A stretch of DNA of 40,914 bases from Nitrospirota bacterium (GTDB taxonomy: Bacteria; Nitrospirota; Nitrospiria; Nitrospirales; UBA8639): assembly GCA_029864405.1 (NCBI GenBank), contig JAOTTP010000022.1, forward strand, positions 1-40,914, written 5' to 3'. Shown piece by piece: positions 11,741 through 40,195 of this stretch (position 1 is the stretch's first letter; each line of letters starts with the position of its first letter). Below the pieces are notes generated by a model. That model was given only the letters and a program-made list of their open reading frames with translations. It was not told the origin of the DNA and searched no databases. The position numbers and the translations under genes are program-made.

Positions 11741-13861
11741 TTGACATCACGGACTATTCTGCACAGAGACTCTTCTCGGAGTTGGGTCATTAAAAATACA
11801 TTGATTCTGCCAGGTCAGGCGGGAAAGTGGATGCTGAGGATCTTCCTGAATGTGTGCCTTAGCGTATCGCTCTTTCCCATTCCAGCCTTTGCCCAACTCG
11901 ACCTCCCCGATACCACGTTTTCTGCAGAAGATAACCTTCTTTTTCAAGATATCCCCTCAGTCTATAGCGCGTCGAAATATGATCAAAAAATAACTGAAGC
12001 CCCATCTTCCATCAGTATTGTCACCGCAGAGGAAATCAAAAAGTACGGCTATCGAACCATGGCCGACCTTCTGGCCAGCCTTCGGGGGATGTCCGCGACC
12101 AATGACCGCACCTATCAATTTCTCGGAATCCGTGGGTTTGCCCGTCCGTCGGACTTCAATACACGAGTCCTGATTTTAATTGACGGCCATCGAACCAATG
12201 ACGCGATATACGATGGCTCAGCCATCGGCAATGATTTTCGGGTGGATATCGATAATATCGATCGTGTGGAAGTCATTCGGGGACCCAGTTCATCCCTCTA
12301 TGGCAACAATGCCTTTTTTGCCGTGATCAATGTCTGGACGAAGCGTGGCCGCGATTATCAAGGGTTTGAAGTGTCCGGAGAACAACGTACCTATGACACG
12401 TATAAAACCCGCCTCAATTACGGAAACCGCTTTTCCAATGGGATAGAAGCTCTTCTTTCTGGAACGTATTTAGAGAGCCAGGGGAAGGATGAGCTGTTTT
12501 TTAGGGAATTCGACGACCCGTCTACTAATAATGGAGTCTTCCGAAAGAATGACGATGAAAAAGTCTATAACCTCTTAGGTCAACTCGCTTGGAAAGATGT
12601 GACGTTGAGAGGGGCCTATGTCCAACGCAAAAAAGGCATTCCCACTGCCGCGTATGAAACCGTTTTTAACGACAAACGGACTGACAGCCTTGATGCACAC
12701 GGCTATCTGGATCTTCGGTATGAACATGATTTTGAAGATCAAACGAAAGTGGTAGGGCGCCTCTTTTATGACAATTACTACTATAGCGGGGATTATGTTT
12801 ATGACTTTGCTGATCCGGGAGATCCTCCGGATCTCGTGGTCAACAAGGATAAAGCCTGGGCACAATGGTGGGGTTCGGAACTCTGGGTCTCCAAGCGTCT
12901 ATTCAATATTCACCGGTTCACGGTCGGAGGAGAACTCCGCCATAACTTCCGGCAAGATCAAAAAAACTACGATCGTACGATGAATCTGAACGACAAGCGG
13001 GATTCGGTCAATTGGGGGCTTTTTCTCCAGGATGAGGTGGAGATCCTGGAAAATGTCAGATTGAATCTCGGCGTGCGCTATGACCATTTCCCGACCTTTG
13101 GTGGCACCACGAATCCGCGGCTGGGGCTCATCTACAATCCCTTTTCAGGGACAAATCTGAAGTTCTTATACGGAACCGCCTTTCGGGCCCCGAGCGTCTA
13201 TGAAAAGTATTATCACGACGGATTCAACACCCAAAAGCCTAACCAGGATTTAGATCCGGAAACAATCGAAACCTTCGAATTCATTGTTGAACAATCCTTG
13301 GGAGGTTCTCTTCGCGGGACCGCCTCCCTCTTCTATAACCGAATTGATGATTTGATTACCTTTGTGGCTGATCCCAACGATGGCCTGCTATTCAATAAAA
13401 ATCTACAGGATGCGGAAACCTTAGGCGTCGAAGTGGCCTTAGAGGGAAAAATCATGGGAAAGGTGGATAGCCGCATCAGTTATTCATTTCAAAATACAGA
13501 AGATCGGGACACCGGAGTGAAGCTGACCAACTCTCCCGCACATTTGGGCAAAATCAACCTGATCGCCCCTCTCTATAAGGAAACCCTCTTTGGTTCTCTT
13601 GGCACACAATATGTGAGTAAGCGGAAAACGTTGTCTGGAAAATATACGGATGATTACTATTTAACCAACCTGTCTCTGTTTAGCCGGTTTAAAAACATCC
13701 AGGTGTTTGGTGGGGATTGGATCAGAGGACTCGAGATTTCCGGAACCGTGTATAACCTCTTTGATCAGAATTATGGTGACCCCGGCTCCGAGGAACATCT
13801 CCAAAATCAAATTCCTCAAGATGGCCGTACCTATCGGATCAAACTGACCGTGGAGTTTTGA
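11741..13861 (+). CDS. TonB-dependent outer-membrane receptor
   Basis: This 706-residue protein has the two-part structure of a TonB-dependent transporter. A signal peptide ends at PAFA (residues about 31-51). The plug domain (about 70-195) includes APSSISIVTAEEIKKYG, GMSATNDRTYQFLGIRGF, NTRVLILIDGHRTND and VEVIRGPSSSLYGNNAFFAV; the rest is a 22-strand-type barrel with NPRLGLIYNP and FRAPSVYEKYY and a terminal LTVEF strand. It imports or senses a ligand at the outer membrane using TonB energy. The plug type resembles the ferrienterochelin/colicin-receptor class, but the substrate is not known. The start is a TTG with ideal GGAGG spacing; an ATG at 11831 directly before the signal core is an alternative. 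The downstream binding protein starts 20 bases after its stop, indicating an operon. Confidence 0.92.
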   Translation: MTSRTILHRDSSRSWVIKNTLILPGQAGKWMLRIFLNVCLSVSLFPIPAFAQLDLPDTTFSAEDNLLFQDIPSVYSASKYDQKITEAPSSISIVTAEEIKKYGYRTMADLLASLRGMSATNDRTYQFLGIRGFARPSDFNTRVLILIDGHRTNDAIYDGSAIGNDFRVDIDNIDRVEVIRGPSSSLYGNNAFFAVINVWTKRGRDYQGFEVSGEQRTYDTYKTRLNYGNRFSNGIEALLSGTYLESQGKDELFFREFDDPSTNNGVFRKNDDEKVYNLLGQLAWKDVTLRGAYVQRKKGIPTAAYETVFNDKRTDSLDAHGYLDLRYEHDFEDQTKVVGRLFYDNYYYSGDYVYDFADPGDPPDLVVNKDKAWAQWWGSELWVSKRLFNIHRFTVGGELRHNFRQDQKNYDRTMNLNDKRDSVNWGLFLQDEVEILENVRLNLGVRYDHFPTFGGTTNPRLGLIYNPFSGTNLKFLYGTAFRAPSVYEKYYHDGFNTQKPNQDLDPETIETFEFIVEQSLGGSLRGTASLFYNRIDDLITFVADPNDGLLFNKNLQDAETLGVEVALEGKIMGKVDSRISYSFQNTEDRDTGVKLTNSPAHLGKINLIAPLYKETLFGSLGTQYVSKRKTLSGKYTDDYYLTNLSLFSRFKNIQVFGGDWIRGLEISGTVYNLFDQNYGDPGSEEHLQNQIPQDGRTYRIKLTVEF

Positions 13862-13881
13862 GCCTAAAGGCCGGGAGCTCA

Positions 13882-14823
13882 ATGAGACGATCATATAGAA
13901 GATCCTGCTACCTGACCGTTCTGCCGTTGTGCATCCTTGCCTGGTTCCCCATGCCAACCGAGGCAGGGAAACTGGTCATTGTTCTGCTCGCTCAGCAAAC
14001 GGAGCCCTACCAAAACGTGCTCGAGGGTTTTCGGCAATCTCTGAGGAAGCAGGGAATCGAGGCGGAGTATGAGGTGCTGAATTTTGACGCCAAAAAGGAT
14101 CAAAGAGGTACATCGCTAGAAGCCATCAAGACGAAAAACCCGGCCTTGATGTTCACACTCGGGTCCGCCGCCACCGAAGCCGCCATTCGAGAGATTAAAC
14201 ATATCCCGATTATTGCTGGCATGATCGTTGATGAAAAGGCGTTACTACAGGCAGAGAACGCCACAGGGGTGATTCTCGATTTTCCCCTGAAAACACAATT
14301 AGACTGGATTCGGCGAATGCTCCCCGACAAGAAAACCGTGGGGGTGTTATTTAATCCCAATGAAAATCAGCACCTCATTACACAAGCCCGTGAACTCACG
14401 GAAGCCATGGGGCTGACCCTCTATGCCAGACAGGTCGAAAGCCCAAGGGATCTTCCCGATGCGTTGGATAGCTTATCCCGTCGTGCCGACGTGGTATGGG
14501 GGCTCACGGACTCGGTAGCTTTAACTCCAGAGACCGCTAAAGGAATCCTGTTATTTTCCTTTCGGAACCGTATCCCGTTTGTCGGACTCTCCACTTCATG
14601 GGTGAAGGCCGGAGCCGTTTATGCATTGGACCGCGATTACGTGGATATTGGCCAACAATGTGGGGAATTGGCAGGAAAAGTGCTCAGGGATGGGAAGATG
14701 CAGGGTCTTCAGCCGCTCCCTCCACGAAAAGTCTTGTATGCACTCAACCTCAAAACGGTCAATCACATGAAACTCGACCTTTCAGATGAAATAATCAAAG
14801 GCGCACAGACCGTGTTTAATTAA
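13882..14823 (+). CDS. Periplasmic ABC_sub_bind-family binding protein
   Basis: After a signal peptide (residues about 1-28, ending PTEAG) the protein shows the two-lobed fold of the ABC_sub_bind family (PF04392, TrpX-like): [85 protein letters not shown] and [24 protein letters not shown]. Relatives bind amino acids or other small molecules. No ABC permease or ATPase is nearby; it lies between a TonB receptor and a hybrid kinase, so a sensory role is more likely than transport. I start at the ATG at 13882 with GGGAG five bases upstream; an in-frame start at 13858 would overlap the receptor stop. The next gene begins 13 bases after the stop. Confidence 0.9.
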
Positions 14824-14836
14824 GGAATACCTGATC

Positions 14837-17752
14837 ATGGCCAATCTACGTGTCAATTTAGTCACAAAATTTAATGTTCTTATTCTTTCGCTGATTCTCG
14901 TTATGGCATTAGGCATTGGACTGTTTGTGGCACAAATCCAACTTGCGCATCAGGTGCGTGAATTGATACGTCACAGCTCTGCTGTGGCGGCCATGATTGC
15001 CCAAGCGGCGGAATACGCAGTATTTACCGAAGATCAGGATGCGCTCCGAGAAGTGATTGAGCCTCTCTCCTCCAATCCTGATGTGGCCTATGTGGCCCTC
15101 CTCAATGCCCAAGCTCATGTTTCGTTATCAAAGTCGATGGATGCCGCGATTCAGGTTCCGGAGGTCAACCCTCGGACCACGGCGTTGTCTCAAACTTCCA
15201 TCCAATCCTATAGCCTGGTGAACAAGGGGGATGGAAACACGTATTGGGAATTTTTGGCACCAATCGTCAGTCAGCCTCAGAACGATCCGTTATTTGCCGA
15301 GCTGGGTGGTCCAACCGGCGCGTCAAAAGTCATTGGGTATGTGCAAATAGGGATCAATCTCCAGGCTCTTCATGAACAACGAGACCAGTTTATTAGCTCA
15401 ATCGCCCAGTTCACGCTCGGCTTTATTTTGGTCGCTAGTGCCATTACCATTTTTCTCACCCGACGGATTACGGCTCCAATTAAGAAACTGGCGACGGTGG
15501 CCACCGATATTACCCAAGGAAATCTCGACCACCATCTCCAACTCGATATCGACACGCAGGATGAAATCCACGACTTAGCGGATGCCTTCACAAAAATGAT
15601 TGAGTGGTTGCGAGGATATCGACAGGAGGTCGAAACCTATCAGCAGTCATTGGAAATCAAAGTTGAGGAACGAACCAAAGAACTCAGCCAGGTAACCGAA
15701 GACGCGCTCCGTTTGGCCGAAGAAGCCAAAGCCGCCAGCCAGGCCAAGAGTGAGTTTTTGGCGACCATGAGCCACGAAATCCGTACTCCGATGAATGGGA
15801 TTATTGGCATGACGGATTTGTTACTTGACACCGAACTGGCGAAGGACCAGCGATATTATGCCACCACCGTCAGAAATTCCGGAGAATCCCTTCTCACGAT
15901 CCTGAACGATATTTTGGATTTTTCGAAAATTGAAGCCGGCAAACTGGAATTTGAAACAATTCCTTTCGATCTCCGTCATGCCATTGAAGAAACGTTAGAA
16001 CTGGTCGGCGAACGAGCCGGAAAGAAAGGCCTGGAATTGGTCGGATGGGTCTTCCCCGATGTTTACTCCACTGTCCAGGGAGATCCCGGAAGATTTCGTC
16101 AGGTCATACTCAATTTACTAAGCAATGCCATCAAATTTACAGAGCATGGGGAGATCGGCATTCAGGTTCTCCGTATGGATGAGACAGAGAACGACATTGA
16201 TCTTCGCGTCCAGGTTTCAGACACCGGAGTGGGAATCTCCCCGGAAGCCCAGAAGAAAATTTTTGAATCCTTTAGCCAGGCAGATAGTTCCACTACCAGA
16301 AAATACGGGGGGACAGGGCTTGGACTGGCTATTTGTCGGCGCATTGTTGAATTAATGGGCGGCGAATTAGGGGTTGAAAGTGAGCTGGGACAAGGCAGTA
16401 TCTTCTGGTTTACGCTTCGTCTTGCAAAGCACCGGCAAGGCCTTCCGTCGCACCCTGGCACCGACCATTCTATATTGGAAGGGCTTCGGGTCTGTTGCGT
16501 GGATGACAATGATACGAACCGGCACCTCTTAGCCCAATATACGGAGGATTGGGGCATGCGGCCGACCTCTTCTTCTTCCGGGATTGAAGCCTTAGCCGTG
16601 CTCCGCGCCGGGGTGGCCCGAGAGAAACCCTTTGATCTGGCTATCCTTGATATGCATATGCCCAATATGGACGGCTTAGAATTAGTCAAAGCCATCAAGG
16701 CCGACCCCAGAATTCAGAGTGTTCGGTGCCTCCTCTTAACCTCGCTCGGCAGGCGTGGTGATGCCAACGAAGCCCAACGTGCAGGATTTCAGGCCTATAT
16801 GACCAAGCCGGTCAGGAAGGCTCAACTCAAACAGAGTTTAGTGGCCATGATGGCCCCCGACCAACCGACCGAAGGGACGAATCAAGAACCCTTGATTACC
16901 CAGCATTCTCTCAAAGAGCAATCCCTGAATCAGCAGCCGAGTACCATCCTGGTGGCAGATGACCATAACGTGAATCAAGAATTGGCGTCGCTCCTTTTAC
17001 AGAAACTTGGCCATCAGGTGGAAGTGGCTAGAAATGGGAAGGAAGCGTTTGAAACTCTCCAGAAACGTTCTTTTGCTCTCATCTTGATGGATTGTCAGAT
17101 GCCGGTGATGGATGGGTATGCGGCCACGCAAGCGATTCGGGCCTGGGAAGGAGAAAACCGCCATACCCCGATTATTGCGGTAACGGCCAACGCCATGCCT
17201 GGGGATCGGGAGAAATGTCTTGCCGCTGGCATGGATGATTACTTAACCAAACCCATTAAGCCGGAAAAACTCCAGGACATGTTACATCGCTGGTTACCAC
17301 AGGAGGAAAGACACGTTCCCACACTTCACCATGTTGACGACGGCACCCAGCTCCAAAAGCCCCTCTCTGGTTCCGATCCTCTCAACACAGTTGTTCAGGA
17401 GACTCAAACTTTGGATTCCGAAAGGCTGGCTGAATGGCAAGCATTGGGAGGAAATGAATTTGTGTGTAAAATCCTGACAAATTTCATCCGCGAGGTAGCG
17501 GAATGCGTATCAGACGTGCAAGAGGCTGTGGCTTCTGAAAATCGGGAAGCCTTAACCCAGGCGGCCCATGGTCTCAAAGGGATCTGTCGCAACGTCGGGG
17601 TGAAAAAGTTGGCTGAGTTGGCTTTTGCTATGGAACAACAGGGTGGACAGGACTCGTTTGATACCGTCCGTCTCAAATTATCTTCCCTCGAGCAGGAGTT
17701 GACTCGAGTTCAACAGGCTCTTGAGCACGAAGTGGTTCAACACTCCACCTGA
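14837..17752 (+). CDS. Membrane-bound hybrid histidine kinase (HAMP-HisKA-HATPase-REC-REC-Hpt)
   Basis: This 971-residue sensor can run a full phosphorelay internally. Transmembrane helix 1 spans about 13-34, a periplasmic sensor domain about 35-184, helix 2 about 185-207, and HAMP about 208-262, followed by a coiled coil. HisKA carries the phosphoacceptor H313 in [10 protein letters not shown]; the ATPase domain has an N-box ([13 protein letters not shown]) and G boxes ([15 protein letters not shown]). The first receiver has acidic D556/D557 and phosphoacceptor D605 (ILDMHMP); the second has D752 (LMDCQMP); the C-terminal Hpt domain has H911 in AAHGLKG. This is a BarA-type layout. No response regulator with an output domain is in the window, so the Hpt domain must donate phosphate to one encoded elsewhere. 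As the last gene of the TonB-receptor operon it probably reads the state of the binding protein in the periplasm. Confidence 0.94.
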
Positions 17753-19815: not shown

Positions 19816-21624
19816 CTACGCCTGTTGCTTAGTTTCGAGCTCCGCCCACCGGGTATACAGGCGCTCCACCTCCTGTTCAGCGGACTTGAGATTTTCATAC
19901 GCTTCTTGGAGCTTGAGATGATTTGAAACAATTTTTGGATTTTCTGTTTCGGTACGGCACAGTTCGAGTACAGCCTCCGCATCAAGCACCCGTTTTTCTA
20001 TCGTGTCATACTCTTGTTGATCGCGAAACAAGAGTTTTTTTGCTTTTGGTCGTTCAGCCGCGGCACGGGCACCCTTTGGTTGAGTGCCTGACTGGTCTTT
20101 GCCTGATCGTTGACGGCGAAGCCACGCTTCCCATTGCCCATAATCGGCGAATTGGCCAAACCCTCCCTGCCCGTCTAATCCTACAAATTCCGTGCACACT
20201 TCCTCCATCATATATCGATCATGAGTGACCAGGATCAATGCTCCAGGAAATTCCTTCAAACTCTCTTCCAAGACTTCCCGCGTCGGGATATCCAAATCGT
20301 TCGTCGGCTCATCCACAATTAACACGTCGGCGGATTGCAGCATTAACCGAGCAATGACCGCCCGCGCCTGTTCACCGCCAGAGAGCAACTCAATAGGGAG
20401 ATCCAGTTGTTCAGGCTGAAACTGGAACCGTTTGGCCCATCCAGCCAGATGCACGGTCTGCCCCCGGTACATGACGGTGTGCCCCGAATCCGACAACGTC
20501 CGCCGTAGTGTCATCTTTGGATCAAGTTGATCACGATTTTGATCAAAATACACCACCTGCAATTTATCCGCATAGGTGACGCTTCCCTGATCAGGTTCCA
20601 ATTCCTTGGCAAGTAATTTCAAGAGGGTGGACTTCCCCGAGCCATTATGGCCTAACACCCCGGTGGCGGTTCCCGGTGAGATCACCCAGTCCAACTTTTG
20701 AATGATCGTCCGCGAGCCATACGCCTTCCGAAGCTGGTGGACGACCATCAATTGTTTCGTGCGCCGACCCGAGCCGACAAAATCAATGGAGGTTTCCTCT
20801 TGTCGCAAGCGCACTTGGCTCTCAGCCAATTCCGCCTGCAACGCATGGGCAGAATCCACGCGAGACTTCGCTTTGGTCGTTCGAGCCTTGGGACCTCGAC
20901 GGAGCCACTCTTCTTCCCTACGGACTTTTCCCGCTAGAGCCTGCGCTTGTTGAGTTTGGCTGTTCAGAAACTCTTCCCGCTTGACCAAAAATTCCTCATA
21001 GCCTCCTGGAACAAGGAAAATGCCATCAGGATACCGGGAATTTATTTCTGCTACCTTATTCGTCGCATGACCCAAGAACCAACGATCATGGCTCACCATG
21101 ATCCACGGCCATGGAGCCTGGGACATCACCTGCTCCAGCCATCGCATCCCTTCCAGATCGAGATGGTTCGTCGGCTCATCCACCAGCATGACATCCGGCG
21201 CCTGAACAAACCCACAAGCGATCGCAAGCCGTTTTTTCCATCCGCCTGAAAGGGGACCCACAAGCTGATCTCCCTGGGAAAATCCCATGCGTCCCAATGT
21301 CTCCTTTACCCGGGCCACGCAATCATGCGCGTGCAGGCCAGATGCCAACGCCGCTCGCTCAATTTCCTCTGCGACGGTAGACTCCGAATCGAACTCAGCC
21401 TGTTGGGGAATATAGGCAATCCGAAGATGCTGCCGTCGAGTGACTCTTCCCTGATCCGGCTGTTCAAGCCCGGCAAAGATTCGAAGGAGGGTACTTTTTC
21501 CCGATCCATTCGGCCCGATAATCCCGATGCGATCTTTTTCTGACACGCCCAGGGTAAGTTCTTGAAAGAGACGCTTGGTCCCATAGGCTTTGGTGAGCTT
21601 CTGTCCATAAATCAGCGCTGACAT
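19816..21624 (-). CDS. uup: ABC-F family ATPase (Uup type)
   Basis: This soluble 602-residue protein has two ABC ATPase cassettes and no membrane domain, the mark of ABC-F translation factors. Each cassette has Walker A (GPNGSGKST near 38 and GHNGSGKST near 325), signature (LSGGWKKRL, LSGGEQARA) and Walker B (VMLVDEPTNHLD, VLIVDEPTNDLD). An inter-cassette linker with LRRGPKARTTKAKSRVDSA and a C-terminal coiled coil with DTIEKRVLDAEAVLE point to the Uup branch, which binds ribosomes and is linked to resolution of stalled complexes and to precise transposon excision in E. coli. The start has AAAGGAG 10 bases upstream. Confidence 0.92.
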   Translation of the reverse strand: MSALIYGQKLTKAYGTKRLFQELTLGVSEKDRIGIIGPNGSGKSTLLRIFAGLEQPDQGRVTRRQHLRIAYIPQQAEFDSESTVAEEIERAALASGLHAHDCVARVKETLGRMGFSQGDQLVGPLSGGWKKRLAIACGFVQAPDVMLVDEPTNHLDLEGMRWLEQVMSQAPWPWIMVSHDRWFLGHATNKVAEINSRYPDGIFLVPGGYEEFLVKREEFLNSQTQQAQALAGKVRREEEWLRRGPKARTTKAKSRVDSAHALQAELAESQVRLRQEETSIDFVGSGRRTKQLMVVHQLRKAYGSRTIIQKLDWVISPGTATGVLGHNGSGKSTLLKLLAKELEPDQGSVTYADKLQVVYFDQNRDQLDPKMTLRRTLSDSGHTVMYRGQTVHLAGWAKRFQFQPEQLDLPIELLSGGEQARAVIARLMLQSADVLIVDEPTNDLDIPTREVLEESLKEFPGALILVTHDRYMMEEVCTEFVGLDGQGGFGQFADYGQWEAWLRRQRSGKDQSGTQPKGARAAAERPKAKKLLFRDQQEYDTIEKRVLDAEAVLELCRTETENPKIVSNHLKLQEAYENLKSAEQEVERLYTRWAELETKQQA

Positions 21625-34661: not shown

Positions 34662-35687
34662 CTATTCTAGTCGGATGTTATCAACGTACAGGGAAAATTC
34701 CTCTGGTGGACTTATGGCAAAGAGTCTAATGGCCTTAATCGCGCTGAGATCCAATTCCCGCCCAACGGGGGCCTGGCGAATGTCATCCAACGGAATGTCA
34801 ATGTGATTGAGGCCTGGCGAAATTGTGATGGCCTGATTGAACCGATCCGCATAGTCGTTATTATGCTGCGCATCATGAATTCCGATGACCAACGATCGGG
34901 CTGTCGGCAATTCGGAATACACATCAAAGCGGAAACGCGAGAACCCGCGCCAATCCGCATAGGGTTCTTCAATTCGAATGCCAGGGTAGTGTTTCGGGTA
35001 AAACACAACCTGCCCTACAGTATCGACCCGAGGTTTCCCCCAACCTAAGGGCGGAGGAACGATCTGAAGTTCACTCTCCTTCCCTTGGACAAACAGCATC
35101 TCCCATGAGGAAGAAAATTGGCAGAGTGATGGGAATCGGGCAGCCCGGTCCCAATAGGCATAGGTCCAGATGAGCACTGTACTCAGAGCGGTGAGAGTCA
35201 GCAGAACAACCCCGGCGTGAACCAGGTGTTTCCATGGAGCCTGCCGCCATACTGCGAGTCGTCCCGTAATATTTCGATCGTACGTTGCATAAAGTCCTAG
35301 GACACATACGGCCCCCACGACATCAAGAAGGAGATCCGACCATTCGGCAAAACGACTCGAACTCAAGGATTGCAAACCCTCACTCACCGCACCCAGAACC
35401 ACGGCCCCAACAAAAGCCATGCCATATTGGCTACCCACAGACCAACCGCGGGGCTCACCAAGTTGCCGTGCCAGATATAAGAGGATGATGGCCACGCCAC
35501 CAAATAATGGAAAATGACAAAAATCATTGAAGGCTTTCAGGAGAATAGTATGAGAGGGAACTGGAATCCAAAGAAGGGCGATACATCCAAAGAGGACCAA
35601 TGCCAGACCAGGGACCATTAACCGGGATGCCATGGATCGCTGATTGGATTCCTGGCGTGTTCGGTCTGTCACAACACCTTCGATCAA
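34662..35687 (-). CDS. VanZ-like membrane protein with C-terminal extracytoplasmic domain
   Basis: Residues about 20-150 form the VanZ-like fold with four to five hydrophobic segments (VPGLALVLFGCIALLWIPVP, NDFCHFPLFGGVAIILLYLA, YGMAFVGAVVLGAVSEGLQS, WSDLLLDVVGAVCVLGLYA), including the conserved FxHFxxFxxxA and EGLQ..R.....D...D pattern. A further helix (about 156-174) leads to a beta-rich, probably extracytoplasmic domain (about 195-341) of carbohydrate-binding-like appearance (FRFDVYSELPTARSLVIGIH, ISPGLNHIDIPLDDI, FSLYVDNIRLE). Reaction unknown. The start TTG shares TTGA with the stop of lhr, so the genes are coupled; an ATG at 35633 is possible. Confidence 0.8.
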   Translation of the reverse strand: MIEGVVTDRTRQESNQRSMASRLMVPGLALVLFGCIALLWIPVPSHTILLKAFNDFCHFPLFGGVAIILLYLARQLGEPRGWSVGSQYGMAFVGAVVLGAVSEGLQSLSSSRFAEWSDLLLDVVGAVCVLGLYATYDRNITGRLAVWRQAPWKHLVHAGVVLLTLTALSTVLIWTYAYWDRAARFPSLCQFSSSWEMLFVQGKESELQIVPPPLGWGKPRVDTVGQVVFYPKHYPGIRIEEPYADWRGFSRFRFDVYSELPTARSLVIGIHDAQHNNDYADRFNQAITISPGLNHIDIPLDDIRQAPVGRELDLSAIKAIRLFAISPPEEFSLYVDNIRLE

Positions 35688-38600
35688 GCCAGACTGACTA
35701 CTGAGGCTATGTCGGCAGACGGCACCCCATTGCAGAAAAAAATGGGCTTAGTGGTGTGCGCGGAAACCCGTTCACCGGGCAAAATGATGCCGACCAGATT
35801 TAACGGATCGGCGGCCGATAGACGAATCTCTTCCGCCCCGACTTGAGCATCACGGCGTACCGCCCGCAACGATTCCACCGCCTCCGGCAAAGCGAACTGT
35901 TCCCCCGTAAAGCCATTCACAAACCGGCCACCCCGCATCTCGCCTCGCCATTCCAGCTTCCGGTATTGCACCAGCAGTTCACGCCAGGTCACCGGCAAGG
36001 ATTCTCGTTTCAGCAGATCACGAAAGACCACCCCATAACGATGCGCCAATTGCCTGGCCCACTGTTCATGGGGATGCATACGAACCGGCGTCTCGTCATC
36101 GTGTGGCCCAGGGTCAGCCTGGAACACATCCCAACGCCCGACACTGTGCCGGGGTCGTCGCGCGCGATCCCTGCCCTCGGCTCGCCGGCGGCGGGGATCA
36201 AGCAGAGCCCGCATGGGATCAAACCCATCAGCAGTCACCAGCCCTGCAGCCACCAGTTCCCACAAGGCCTGCTCTACTTCGGCAGCTAGATGTCCCGTTC
36301 GACTGGTCAGATCCGCAAAAAAACATGCACCACGACGATCCAGACAATCAAAGACGGCTTGAGCAACGCTACTCAGGGAAAATCGGACCCCAAGCGGCCC
36401 TGCAGATTTCCCGGGTTTGGCCACACCCAATATCCAACTCACATCCTGCCGTCGCAAAAAACTGATGGGAGCCAGGCTGGTCGGAGTCAGAGGCCGGAAT
36501 GCCGGAACGGACGGAACGGGCGCTCCAGCGTCCAAGGCCACGTCACCTGTCCCCTGTTCGTTTCCTACCACGGGTAAGAGTGTCGCCTTGCTTTCCGGAG
36601 GGGTGAGACGACCCCAGGCTACCTCGCCGCGCAGGCACAAATTGTCGAGCCATTCTGGTTTGTAAGGAGCCATGCGTTCTTTGAGAAGCGACGATTCCCA
36701 CGACGAGGCGGGCGCTTCAAATCCTGCCAACTGGTGAATCACCTCACGCAGCCCGGCTTCTCCGTGTAATTGCGTGCCGGGCGCTCGATGCTGCCACCGA
36801 AAGAGAAAGCGCATGAAATCCGACGCGGCAACCGGCTCGATTTCCCGGCGCAAGGCTGTGACAGTTCGCCGATGAATGCGAGCCAGAAGACTGCGGTCAC
36901 ACCATTCGACTTCTGCGGTTACTGACACTTCCCCCCTCACCCTCCCCTCTCCCCCATTGGGGCGAGGGTCAGCATTAGGGAAAGATTCCGAATCCGGATC
37001 TTTCCCCTCTCCCTGACAGGGAGAGGGAGAAGAAGAAACCGGACGGAAATGACCGCGAAGTACCTGGCCCTGTCCTTCTAATTGCAACAGAGCCTGATGC
37101 ACCAGTCCCGTGGGCAAACTCAATCGCCCGGCCAATTCGTCAGCGGTCACTGGACCAATATGCGGCATCCAACCTTGCACAACATCACGCGCGGCAGATT
37201 CTGAGGTGATCGATTCTTCCTCCACAGACAAGGAGGGTGAATCCCGCCTACCAGCAACCACCTCCGCATCTGGGAATAAGACCTGAAGACGGGGAAGATG
37301 CTCTCTCGTGGTCCACCCCTCAACAATTTTCGTTCCCGAGGCGCCAGCAACAGACACCCGAAAAACCAGCACCCGGCCATTCGTCACCAGAAGATCACCA
37401 TACTCCTGCCACAGCTCACCCATCGCCGATGGCAACCATCCCAGAACCTGAAGCACATCGAAGAATTCATCAGTATCACGAATCAACGGCCAGGCTTCCT
37501 CAACCACCGCATCAATCGCTGCCGCATCCAATGTGCCAATCTTCCCGTCAAAAGCGGTGGGCGACGTCCGCCGGAGATTCACGGCACGAGCCCGTCGCTC
37601 TTCCAACGGCGCATCATCCAGGAAGGCATAGGGATTGGCATTCAAAATTTCATGCGCGAACAGAGAGGGCACCGGCGATTCCACAACCCGCACCTGAATC
37701 TCCTGATTCTCTATCCGCTCAAGCATCTGGCGCAGGCCAACCAGATCCATCGCCTCCGTTAAACAGTCACGCAACGTTTCCTGGACCAAATGATGATCCG
37801 GCACAGGAATGTCTCCGACGTGATTATCGCCGCAGGCTGCGGCCATCGGGAACGCCGCCGCCAATAAATCCTCCGCCCGCATGCGTTGCAGATGCACCGG
37901 CACACGTTTGCCGTTTTGAAACCGCAACAGCGCCAACGCACGGGTCACATTCCACCGCCAGCGTGTGAGAAACAGTGGAGTCGCCAAGGTGGCTTGAATG
38001 AGCACGTCTCGCACGGTGTTGGGATGCACAAATCCAAAGATGGCCTCCAGTGGAAAACTATGCTGCTCACCAAGCGACAGCACCAACCCGTCGTCCGTGG
38101 CCGCCGCCTGCAATTCAAAATCAAAATTTACGCAAAAACGTTTGCGTAACGCCAGCCCCCACGCGCGATTGAGCCTGCCACCGAACGGCGCGTGCAGCAC
38201 CAGTTGCATCCCCCCGGCTTCATCAAAGAATCGTTCCGCAATCACACAGGTCTGCGTCGGCACACCTCCGAGGATCTGTGCACCTCCGGCCACATACGCC
38301 AGCAATTGATCGGCGCCTGACGCATCAACTCCACATGCTTCATGAAGCCAGTGACGCGCCCTCTCATCTCCGGGAGTGGCTCCCTGCTCAAGCAACTGAA
38401 AGATCTGCTCACGCACGTCCGCCACGGCATGAGATAATTCGAACGACCGGGAAGGCGCTTCCCCCCGCCAGAACGGAATATTGGGCGGCGCGCCATGCGC
38501 ATCCTCCACACGGACTTTTCCCGTTTCAATCCCACGGATGCGCCAGGATGTCGTGCCCAGCAACATAATATCCCCGGCAAGACTCTCAATCGCAAAATCT

Positions 38601-40195
38601 TCATCCACCGTTCCCACCACGGTCCCATCCGGTTCCGCCACCACCGAGTAGGTCGCCGTTTCAGGAATCGCCCCCCCGGAGGTCAACGCGGCCAAACGGG
38701 CTCCACGCTTTGGCCGAAGCCGGCCTTCATGCCGGTCATAACTCATCAACGCATACAGCCGTCTGCGCCCGGGCACAAATCCCTCGGCCACCAACCGCAG
38801 CAACGACTCAAAGATCTCCCACGTCAACTCCCGATACGGGTAGGCCGACCGGCACAAGGCAAACAGGGCACGCGCATCCCATTCCTGCGCCGCGACCTCG
38901 GCAATGATCTGTTGAATTAAAATATCCAGCGGGGCGGAGGGGATCTCGATGGTTTCCAATTGACCCTGCCGAATCGCTCGGATCACCGCCGCGCATTCGA
39001 CTAATTCATCCCGGGTCGTACAAAACAGCCGTCCCTGTGGAACAGCCCCCACCTGATGCCCTGCCCGCCCCACACGCTGAAGACACGTGGCAATCGCACG
39101 AGGCGAGCCGATCTGACACACCACATCAATAAAACCAATATCGATACCCAGCTCTAATGACGCGGTCGCCACCATCACCTTGATCTGCCCGGTCTTCAAT
39201 CGCTCTTCGGCATCTAAACGAAGTTTGCGTGACAAGCTGCCATGATGGGACGCCACCTGTGCCTCGCCTAAGCGTTCTCCTAGATGATGCGCCACCCGTT
39301 CCGCCATCCGGCGGGTATTCACAAACACCAACGTCGAACGATGCGGCCCGGCGATGTCGGCAATACGATCATAGATCTCCGACCACATCGCATTAGTGGC
39401 AATCGCGCCTAATTCATCCTTCGGGACTTCCACCTGCAGATCCAACTGCCGGCGATGGCCGATATCCACAATGTGACAATGCGACGAGTCAAAGAGCGAG
39501 GGTTGTTGAGCCTTCGCGCGATGAGCGGAGTCACCCAATAAAAATTGGGCCACCGTCTCCAATGGCCGCTGCGTGGCGGACAGGCCGATGCGCACCAACC
39601 GCCGGGAGGTCACGGCATCCAACCGCTCAAGAGACAGCGCCAGATGCGCGCCACGTTTATTCGGTGCGAGTGCGTGAATTTCATCGACAATCACCGTATG
39701 CACGCCGGTCAAAAGTTCGCGACTCCGCCTGGCCGTCACCAGAAGAAACAACGACTCCGGCGTCGTCACCAAAATGTGCGGCGGGTGTTTGAGCAGACGT
39801 TGGCGTTCTGCGGCAGGCGTATCGCCGGTCCGGACCTCCACCCGAATCCTCGGTCCCAAAAAACCGGCAGACAGAGCCAGTTCGCTAATCTCGGCCAACG
39901 GCAGTTCCAAATTTTTGTGAATATCATGACTCAGCGCGCGCAGAGGCGACACGTAGACGACCTGGATGCCGTCCTCCAACTCTCCGCCAATCGCCTGCCG
40001 TAGCAAATGGTCGATGCACGTGAGAAAAGCCGCCAGCGTTTTACCGGAGCCGGTGGGTGCCGAAATCAAGGCATGATGTCCGGAATGAATAGCAGGCCAA
40101 CTGGCCCGTTGCACATCGGTCGGTTCACCCAGCCTGGTCGTAAACCATTCTTGAACAACCGGATGAAAAGATTGAAGCGGCATAGGATCAGTCAT
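35684..40195 (-). CDS. lhr: Full-length Lhr-type superfamily 2 helicase (1503 aa)
   Basis: This is a large ATP-dependent 3'-5' helicase used in DNA repair. The N-terminal Lhr core has SF2 motifs: Walker A APTGSGKTLAAF (about 40-51), the DEIH box VDEIHALAP (about 167), SATQRP (about 206), VFVNTRRMAERVA, and QRVGRAGHQ (about 370-378). The winged-helix and Lhr-specific domains follow up to about 900. At about 1500 residues it carries the long C-terminal extension found in E. coli Lhr and absent from Lhr-core proteins; that part is linked to glycosylase/AlkZ-like activity in characterised relatives. Residues about 1054-1089 are an unusual insert encoded by a palindromic repeat (see 36929-37034). 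It is the first gene of a two-gene unit with the VanZ-like gene. Confidence 0.95.
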   Translation of the reverse strand: MTDPMPLQSFHPVVQEWFTTRLGEPTDVQRASWPAIHSGHHALISAPTGSGKTLAAFLTCIDHLLRQAIGGELEDGIQVVYVSPLRALSHDIHKNLELPLAEISELALSAGFLGPRIRVEVRTGDTPAAERQRLLKHPPHILVTTPESLFLLVTARRSRELLTGVHTVIVDEIHALAPNKRGAHLALSLERLDAVTSRRLVRIGLSATQRPLETVAQFLLGDSAHRAKAQQPSLFDSSHCHIVDIGHRRQLDLQVEVPKDELGAIATNAMWSEIYDRIADIAGPHRSTLVFVNTRRMAERVAHHLGERLGEAQVASHHGSLSRKLRLDAEERLKTGQIKVMVATASLELGIDIGFIDVVCQIGSPRAIATCLQRVGRAGHQVGAVPQGRLFCTTRDELVECAAVIRAIRQGQLETIEIPSAPLDILIQQIIAEVAAQEWDARALFALCRSAYPYRELTWEIFESLLRLVAEGFVPGRRRLYALMSYDRHEGRLRPKRGARLAALTSGGAIPETATYSVVAEPDGTVVGTVDEDFAIESLAGDIMLLGTTSWRIRGIETGKVRVEDAHGAPPNIPFWRGEAPSRSFELSHAVADVREQIFQLLEQGATPGDERARHWLHEACGVDASGADQLLAYVAGGAQILGGVPTQTCVIAERFFDEAGGMQLVLHAPFGGRLNRAWGLALRKRFCVNFDFELQAAATDDGLVLSLGEQHSFPLEAIFGFVHPNTVRDVLIQATLATPLFLTRWRWNVTRALALLRFQNGKRVPVHLQRMRAEDLLAAAFPMAAACGDNHVGDIPVPDHHLVQETLRDCLTEAMDLVGLRQMLERIENQEIQVRVVESPVPSLFAHEILNANPYAFLDDAPLEERRARAVNLRRTSPTAFDGKIGTLDAAAIDAVVEEAWPLIRDTDEFFDVLQVLGWLPSAMGELWQEYGDLLVTNGRVLVFRVSVAGASGTKIVEGWTTREHLPRLQVLFPDAEVVAGRRDSPSLSVEEESITSESAARDVVQGWMPHIGPVTADELAGRLSLPTGLVHQALLQLEGQGQVLRGHFRPVSSSPSPCQGEGKDPDSESFPNADPRPNGGEGRVRGEVSVTAEVEWCDRSLLARIHRRTVTALRREIEPVAASDFMRFLFRWQHRAPGTQLHGEAGLREVIHQLAGFEAPASSWESSLLKERMAPYKPEWLDNLCLRGEVAWGRLTPPESKATLLPVVGNEQGTGDVALDAGAPVPSVPAFRPLTPTSLAPISFLRRQDVSWILGVAKPGKSAGPLGVRFSLSSVAQAVFDCLDRRGACFFADLTSRTGHLAAEVEQALWELVAAGLVTADGFDPMRALLDPRRRRAEGRDRARRPRHSVGRWDVFQADPGPHDDETPVRMHPHEQWARQLAHRYGVVFRDLLKRESLPVTWRELLVQYRKLEWRGEMRGGRFVNGFTGEQFALPEAVESLRAVRRDAQVGAEEIRLSAADPLNLVGIILPGERVSAHTTKPIFFCNGVPSADIASVVSLA
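36929..37034. repeat. Palindromic repeat element inserted in frame in lhr
   Basis: Plus-strand bases show CCCCTCACCCTCCCCTCTCC, CCATTGGGGCGAGGG and, at the far end, CCTCTCCCTGACAGGGAGAGGG, of which the last is a perfect short palindrome. Read on the coding strand it yields SPSPCQGEGKDPDSESF and NADPRPNGGEGRVRGE, a low-complexity peptide unlike the rest of the helicase. The type of sequence is known as a dispersed intergenic repeat in many bacteria. Here its length keeps the frame open. Confidence 0.75.

Follow-up and report, generated by a model that had tools for sequence, protein, structure and literature searches.

The LuxP/LuxQ pair senses AI-2 in Vibrio, and in the FecA-FecR-FecI system a TonB receptor forms part of the signalling line. 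TonB receptors are known to signal mainly by way of anti-sigma partners, and periplasmic binding proteins are usually viewed as the parts of an importer that double as reporters. In the SBP-stimulated receptors, which comprise chemoreceptors, kinases and GGDEF/EAL proteins, the binding protein is presented to the sensor domain of a transmembrane receptor, according to the sections of PMC9602780 that deal with them, and this is also the arrangement that we propose here. We examine a stretch of 40,914 nucleotides from a Nitrospirota bacterium (contig JAOTTP010000022.1, termed the window), which holds a phosphorelay version of a widespread modular sensing cassette that is likely dedicated to trans-envelope signalling. 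The genome it comes from (G000) amounts to 2.9 Mb and is 66% complete; a close relative (G017) is also incomplete, and a complete genome is available for a congener (G018).

The locus consists of three open reading frames on the + strand, at 11741-13861, 13858-14823 and 14837-17752, and the Pfam searches found in them the domains that had been read from the sequence by the original prediction. The first frame encodes the outer-membrane part of the cassette, a TonB-dependent receptor with a Plug and a TonB_dep_Rec_b-barrel domain; no N-terminal STN signalling domain was matched at an E-value threshold of 0.001, the only hits being the plug, the barrel and OMP_b-brl_3. ATG 11831 is a likely start of the receptor and would provide it with an ordinary signal peptide ending in PAFA before a Q. 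Just before the plug, at the place of the TonB box, there is a conserved stretch (11939-11986, + strand), here LFQDIPSVYSASKYDQ, with a putative role at that place. In the receptor alignment, F68, I71 and P72 of this stretch are nearly invariant, and A77 and Q82 are invariant. Across the receptor N-termini compared, a LFQEIPSVYGASKYEQ-like stretch is strongly conserved at the position expected for a TonB box; we take it to differ from the usual TonB box. Of 18 receptors from other loci that were aligned with the window receptor, one (L032) is 86% identical to it and the other 17 are 40-50% identical. TonB is encoded, which supports a reading based on the receptor.

The second frame encodes a periplasmic solute-binding protein of a transporter-less subfamily of ABC_sub_bind, and PF04392 is its sole Pfam match (100.3 bits for a cut-off of 25.9), so that it is not a DUF4154/YfiR protein. 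When started at TTG, this frame overlaps the receptor by 4 bases; its likely start is ATG 13882, and with that start the previously reported gaps of 20 and 13 bases between the three genes are correct. The third frame encodes the inner-membrane part, a hybrid sensor kinase in which Pfam recognizes HAMP, HisKA, HATPase_c, two Response_reg stretches and Hpt. Its periplasmic sensor domain (residues 42-179; 14960-15373) is sCache_4-like, with a Pfam score that lies narrowly over the cut-off (22.9 vs 22.1 bits) and an AlphaFold2 model of pLDDT 86.7, which gives Cache-type structure matches to CitA, DctB, WalK and LuxQ. It is followed by the HAMP domain (residues 206-256; 15452-15604), by HisKA (15743-15940) with its predicted phospho-acceptor H313, by HATPase_c (16079-16426), by a first receiver of approximate bounds (16484-16846; predicted phospho-site D605), by a second receiver (16946-17284; D752) and by the Hpt domain (17471-17719). 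The phospho-site of the latter had been placed at H911, and the motif-based sites agree. The kinase stays below the BarA equivalog cut-off, which covers the BarA/GacS kinases (587.9 vs 890 bits).

Directly beside the three genes, the scanned neighbours include no permease, transport ATPase, ExbBD or separate response regulator. An ABC ATPase encoded at 19816-21624 on the - strand, with two ABC_tran stretches, ABC_tran_CTD and ABC_tran_Xtn, is part of another transcription unit. The window gave no Rfam match, to a riboswitch or otherwise, and the scan for promoters and terminators did no better than on shuffled sequences. Further along, at 35684-40195 on the - strand, the window encodes a large ATP-dependent helicase of 1503 residues, whose best NCBIfam match is PRK13767 (715 bits, under the cut-off of 849).

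The conservation of this organization was examined by aligning 26 homologues of the binding protein and scanning 84,980 species genomes, which returned 111 relatives. We retained the 80 best of them, so that these loci were selected by the binding protein alone. A receptor of the cassette family lies directly upstream on the same strand in 70 of the 80, at least 600 bases of room being available in 76, and a Cache-HAMP sensor protein lies directly downstream in 74. Both are present in 65 loci from six phyla, as judged by record titles (32 Nitrospirota, 14 Pseudomonadota, 7 Planctomycetota, and 4 each of Acidobacteriota, Myxococcota and Thermodesulfobacteriota). Since both flanking genes turn up in 65 of 80 loci that were selected on the binding protein only, the layout is not due to chance, and the three-gene order is conserved elsewhere, as the original prediction had asked to be checked. 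After thinning at 70% binding-protein identity, the receptor is upstream in 43 of 48 loci and the sensor downstream in 46 of 51. The gap between the receptor and binding-protein frames is at most 60 bases in 62 of the 70 cases; 10 of these 70 receptors are short frames at contig ends, or split.

The exceptions are few. Among the 76 loci with room, there are six in which no co-directional receptor precedes the binding protein (L063, L077, L085, L091, L100, and L094, where it is divergent), and among all 80, six do not have the sensor directly downstream (L054, L067, L083 and L088, plus L042 and L107, which carry tandem copies). In L107 (5748-13513), receptor-binding protein pairs stand in tandem and the sensor protein is found behind the second pair only. 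No fusion between a binding protein and a sensor of this family was seen among the open frames listed, the longest of which has 496 residues. One of these records, L063, is titled as a Klebsiella pneumoniae MAG; its binding protein groups with that of a deltaproteobacterial MAG (L077), and it is likely a mislabelled bin. The distribution is scattered, and phyla are mixed in the binding-protein tree, which, like the receptor tree, is a quick one with long branches. Few members of the window's own genus carry the cassette: the receptor was found in 3 of 59 relatives, the window's own genome included, and one of these (G036) is 33% identical and contains a stop. The complete congener G018 has an orthologous binding protein (58% identical) and kinase (L113, 7383-11256), with no receptor of the cassette family upstream or, at an E-value of 1e-40, elsewhere in the genome. 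The window's own genome also holds, on contig C96 (L112, 1296-7928), a paralogous ABC_sub_bind protein, after which come a HAMP-GAF kinase, a REC-PAS protein and a distantly related TonB receptor; this second family of ABC_sub_bind proteins with sensors is common in the bacterial order.

What varies from one locus to another is the output. The third genes, 74 in number, encode 60 kinases, 9 GGDEF-EAL proteins, 2 chemotaxis receptors, 2 kinases fused to GGDEF-EAL and 1 unclear product with a broken frame, and Pfam was run on ten of the output variants. On the binding-protein tree, the output changed at least nine times, or six when the ten longest rows are left uncounted, and among relatives the change falls right after HAMP. 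This can be followed closely in two Brocadia loci, one with a GGDEF-EAL output (L069) and one with a kinase (L076), whose binding proteins are 64% and receptors 72% identical: their third proteins share 50-73% identity per 30-residue bin up to residue 270, that is, over the sensor and HAMP, and 10-23% after it. L065 has two proteins with like sensors behind one binding protein, namely a chemotaxis receptor and a hybrid kinase. In two Methylococcales loci (L105 and L106), a single protein of 1664 or 1692 residues runs from kinase through REC-REC-Hpt-REC to GGDEF-EAL, with a PAS domain also detected in the L105 fusion. The original prediction thus holds in that the unit is conserved and dedicated to signalling; since GGDEF-EAL and chemotaxis outputs share the same receptor, binding protein and sensor, it does not hold as a description of a kinase system as such.

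Some of the kinases themselves have a regulator at hand. Leaving aside the 5 of the 60 kinase loci that lie at a contig end, a REC-GGDEF-EAL gene comes next in 12 of 55 and a lone receiver in 5, and 11 of the 12 kinases with a REC-GGDEF-EAL neighbour carry a detected Hpt domain. One carrier of the cassette, Methylotuvimicrobium buryatense (L092), has a REC-GGDEF gene in the next place. The lack of an output regulator, correctly described for the window locus, is therefore specific to that locus and does not extend to its relatives. With neighbouring regulators included, a GGDEF output is found in the third or the next gene of 25 of 74 loci, so c-di-GMP enzymes appear to be a frequent end point, and the window kinase itself may feed into one as well. 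When the REC-GGDEF-EAL regulator of L084 was used as a query against five genomes, matches covering the receiver were obtained in G089 and G104, and no match in G000 (incomplete), G017 or G018 covers it.

The divergence of the three proteins also connects the sensor to its periplasmic partner. In 45 kinase loci, the distances of the binding protein and of the sensor correlate with r = 0.86, and those of the receptor and the sensor with 0.79, while the kinase domain correlates less well with the binding protein (0.57), with the receptor (0.43) and even with its own sensor (0.41). In 31 thinned loci, the corresponding values are 0.78 and 0.70, and 0.53, 0.33 and 0.30. When this thinned set was subsampled, the correlation of the binding protein was higher with the sensor than with the kinase in 493 of 500 draws, and none of 2000 permutations reached 0.78. 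The sensor has thus diverged more in step with the binding protein than with the kinase domain to which it is joined. These correlated distances fit an interface between binding protein and sensor, as one would read it from sequences, and shared history contributes to them too.

Taking these observations together, we consider it probable that the three genes are a member of a modular cassette family whose signal spans the entire envelope. In this reading, a ligand would be let in, or else registered, by the TonB receptor at the outer membrane, and the binding protein would report this ligand in the periplasm without any transporter. It would do so by direct contact with the Cache sensor, which in turn would pass the signal through HAMP to a lineage-specific output. 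In the window kinase, this output would be a relay from H313 through D605 or D752 to H911. Import through the cassette, as far as can be judged from sequence, would likely serve sensing rather than feeding. The congener G018, with a binding protein and a kinase and no receptor of this family, counts against this reading of the cassette as a sensing line.

The periplasmic part is exchangeable too. A profile of 19 receptors was searched against 198 Nitrospirota genomes, and all 17 receptors scoring at least 773 bits have one of two genes directly behind them, 12 that of the binding protein and 5 that of a YfiR protein some 190 residues long. The nine receptor rows below 400 bits have neither next to them, and the four intermediate rows are fragments. 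The YfiR/DUF4154 identity was established by Pfam for four of the five (E-value 5e-43 or better) and by a family search for the fifth. In these five loci, the third gene encodes CHASE8 and HAMP with GGDEF-EAL or kinase outputs. The window kinase scores 20.9 bits against CHASE8, for a cut-off of 27, while the YfiR-linked relatives reach 52-73 bits. In a quick receptor tree, the YfiR-linked rows fall in at least two places inside the clade of the rows linked to binding proteins (support 100), a clade of 43 rows. Starting from the Nitrospirota YfiR loci, a receptor-like frame is found upstream in 12 of 20, several with weak scores, and a CHASE8 sensor downstream in 17 of 20. The window's own genome holds such a second cassette on contig C61 (L221, 898-6697), made of a distant TonB receptor, a YfiR protein (PF13689) and a hybrid kinase that combines CHASE8-HAMP with receivers and Hpt. 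In a comparison of L192 (YfiR and GGDEF-EAL) with L061 and L078 (binding protein and GGDEF-EAL), the receptors are 55% identical, the sensor bins mostly 17-37% and the output bins mostly 40-65%, a figure to which we give no weight, since unlinked GGDEF-EAL proteins reach 44-48% too.

This pairing of one receptor family with YfiR brings up another mode of action, in which the receptor would be an outer-membrane anchor and not an importer, the binding protein would hold the sensor off, and the occupied receptor would pull the binding protein away. YfiR acts in this manner, as a periplasmic repressor that is sequestered by the outer-membrane protein YfiB, in the part of PMC4655355 that describes it, and the nesting of the five YfiR loci in the 43-row clade, together with the correlation of receptor and sensor distances (0.79, thinned 0.70), speaks for a similar arrangement here. 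Nevertheless, PF04392 is a family of ligand-binding proteins, with a solved Trp complex (3lft), and in G018, where the receptor is missing, the repressor would be left partnerless; we therefore regard sequestration as unlikely. Returning to the reading of the cassette as a ligand-reporting signalling line, a broader version can be put forward tentatively, with rather less than even confidence: the TonB receptor family might be the sensory head of a general platform with interchangeable adaptors (ABC_sub_bind or YfiR), matched Cache sensors and various outputs (phosphorelay, c-di-GMP turnover, chemotaxis), in which ligand recognition at the outer membrane is itself the signal, relayed physically via three proteins and across two membranes.

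A more conventional explanation would be ordinary nutrient uptake regulated by the kinase, in which the binding protein would serve an ABC importer whose genes lie elsewhere and the kinase would do no more than sense the nutrient. It draws on distant relatives: 24 plasmid records hold a PF04392 protein of 22-27% identity, and among the eight inspected, seven precede an ABC permease and an ATPase (the exception is L238), the permease being PF02653 in all seven. This permease family gave no match in G000 (66% complete), G017 (incomplete), the complete G018, G013, G009 or G089; it was found in G104, G031 and 12 of 14 control genomes. In the class Nitrospiria, 29 of the 30 PF04392 loci examined continue with a sensor protein, of the cassette family or of the second family. 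A check that the original prediction had called for thus came out on its side, as the close relatives of the binding protein adjoin a sensor and not a transporter, and permease and ATPase genes accompany only the distant PF04392 relatives. As the outputs also include chemotaxis and c-di-GMP enzymes, uptake for nutrition appears very improbable. That the genes were merely co-transferred and act separately would suit the scattered distribution and the mixed phyla of the binding-protein tree, but it is hardly credible given that 65 of the 80 loci keep the order even as the output is swapped at the HAMP border, and that sensor divergence is tied more tightly to the binding protein than to the kinase domain of the same protein.

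For the signalling cassette, the nature of the ligand is hinted at by the nearest solved binding proteins (6hnj, 3lkv and 3lft, the last with L-Trp), which point to an aromatic amino-acid-like compound. The window protein itself remains far under the TrpX NCBIfam equivalog cut-off (71.8 vs 390 bits). A link to lanthanides, considered because a methanotroph carries the cassette, was dropped, as the relevant parts of PMC12482762 and PMC13108547 do not tie the cassette to LanA.

In carriers that include nitrifiers, anammox bacteria, methanotrophs and others, a subfamily of binding proteins appears to have left transport and taken on the dedicated role of an adaptor, linking an outer-membrane receptor to a sensor in the inner membrane. 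The exchanges of outputs and adaptors amount to a natural set of chimeras, in which the same periplasmic input is connected to a kinase, a c-di-GMP enzyme or a chemoreceptor. If this is true, a function could be assigned to many of the receptors and "ABC transporter substrate-binding proteins" that are currently annotated as uptake genes. No description of the cassette was found among the full texts of an open-licence library, so its novelty is provisional.

Compared with the known systems, the cassette shares with the TrpX-type ABC_sub_bind proteins the family and the fold (PF04392; 3lft with L-Trp, 6hnj), but, unlike these transport proteins, it comes without permease or ATPase. In the SBP-stimulated receptors, the binding protein commonly serves a transporter also, and no outer-membrane receptor is named in the sections of PMC9602780 devoted to them, where the word TonB does not occur. 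With respect to FecA-FecR-FecI, the cassette receptor has no matched N-terminal signalling domain and no anti-sigma or sigma gene adjoins it, the proposed signal running instead via the binding protein and the sensor. LuxP/LuxQ differs in that its binding protein belongs to another family, and the window unit adds an outer-membrane TonB receptor to the pair; the window kinase scores 362 bits for LuxQ, under the equivalog cut-off of 1200, and its cassette family has non-kinase outputs too. Like the cassette, YfiB-YfiR-YfiN (TpbB) combines an outer-membrane protein, a periplasmic protein and an inner-membrane HAMP sensor, and relatives of the window receptor actually carry YfiR and a CHASE8 sensor. 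However, YfiB is an OmpA-like lipoprotein whereas the outer-membrane part of the cassette is a TonB receptor, the periplasmic part is here ABC_sub_bind, and the output is mostly a kinase. The cassette is thus closest in its logic to YfiBNR and LuxPQ, while being a member of neither.
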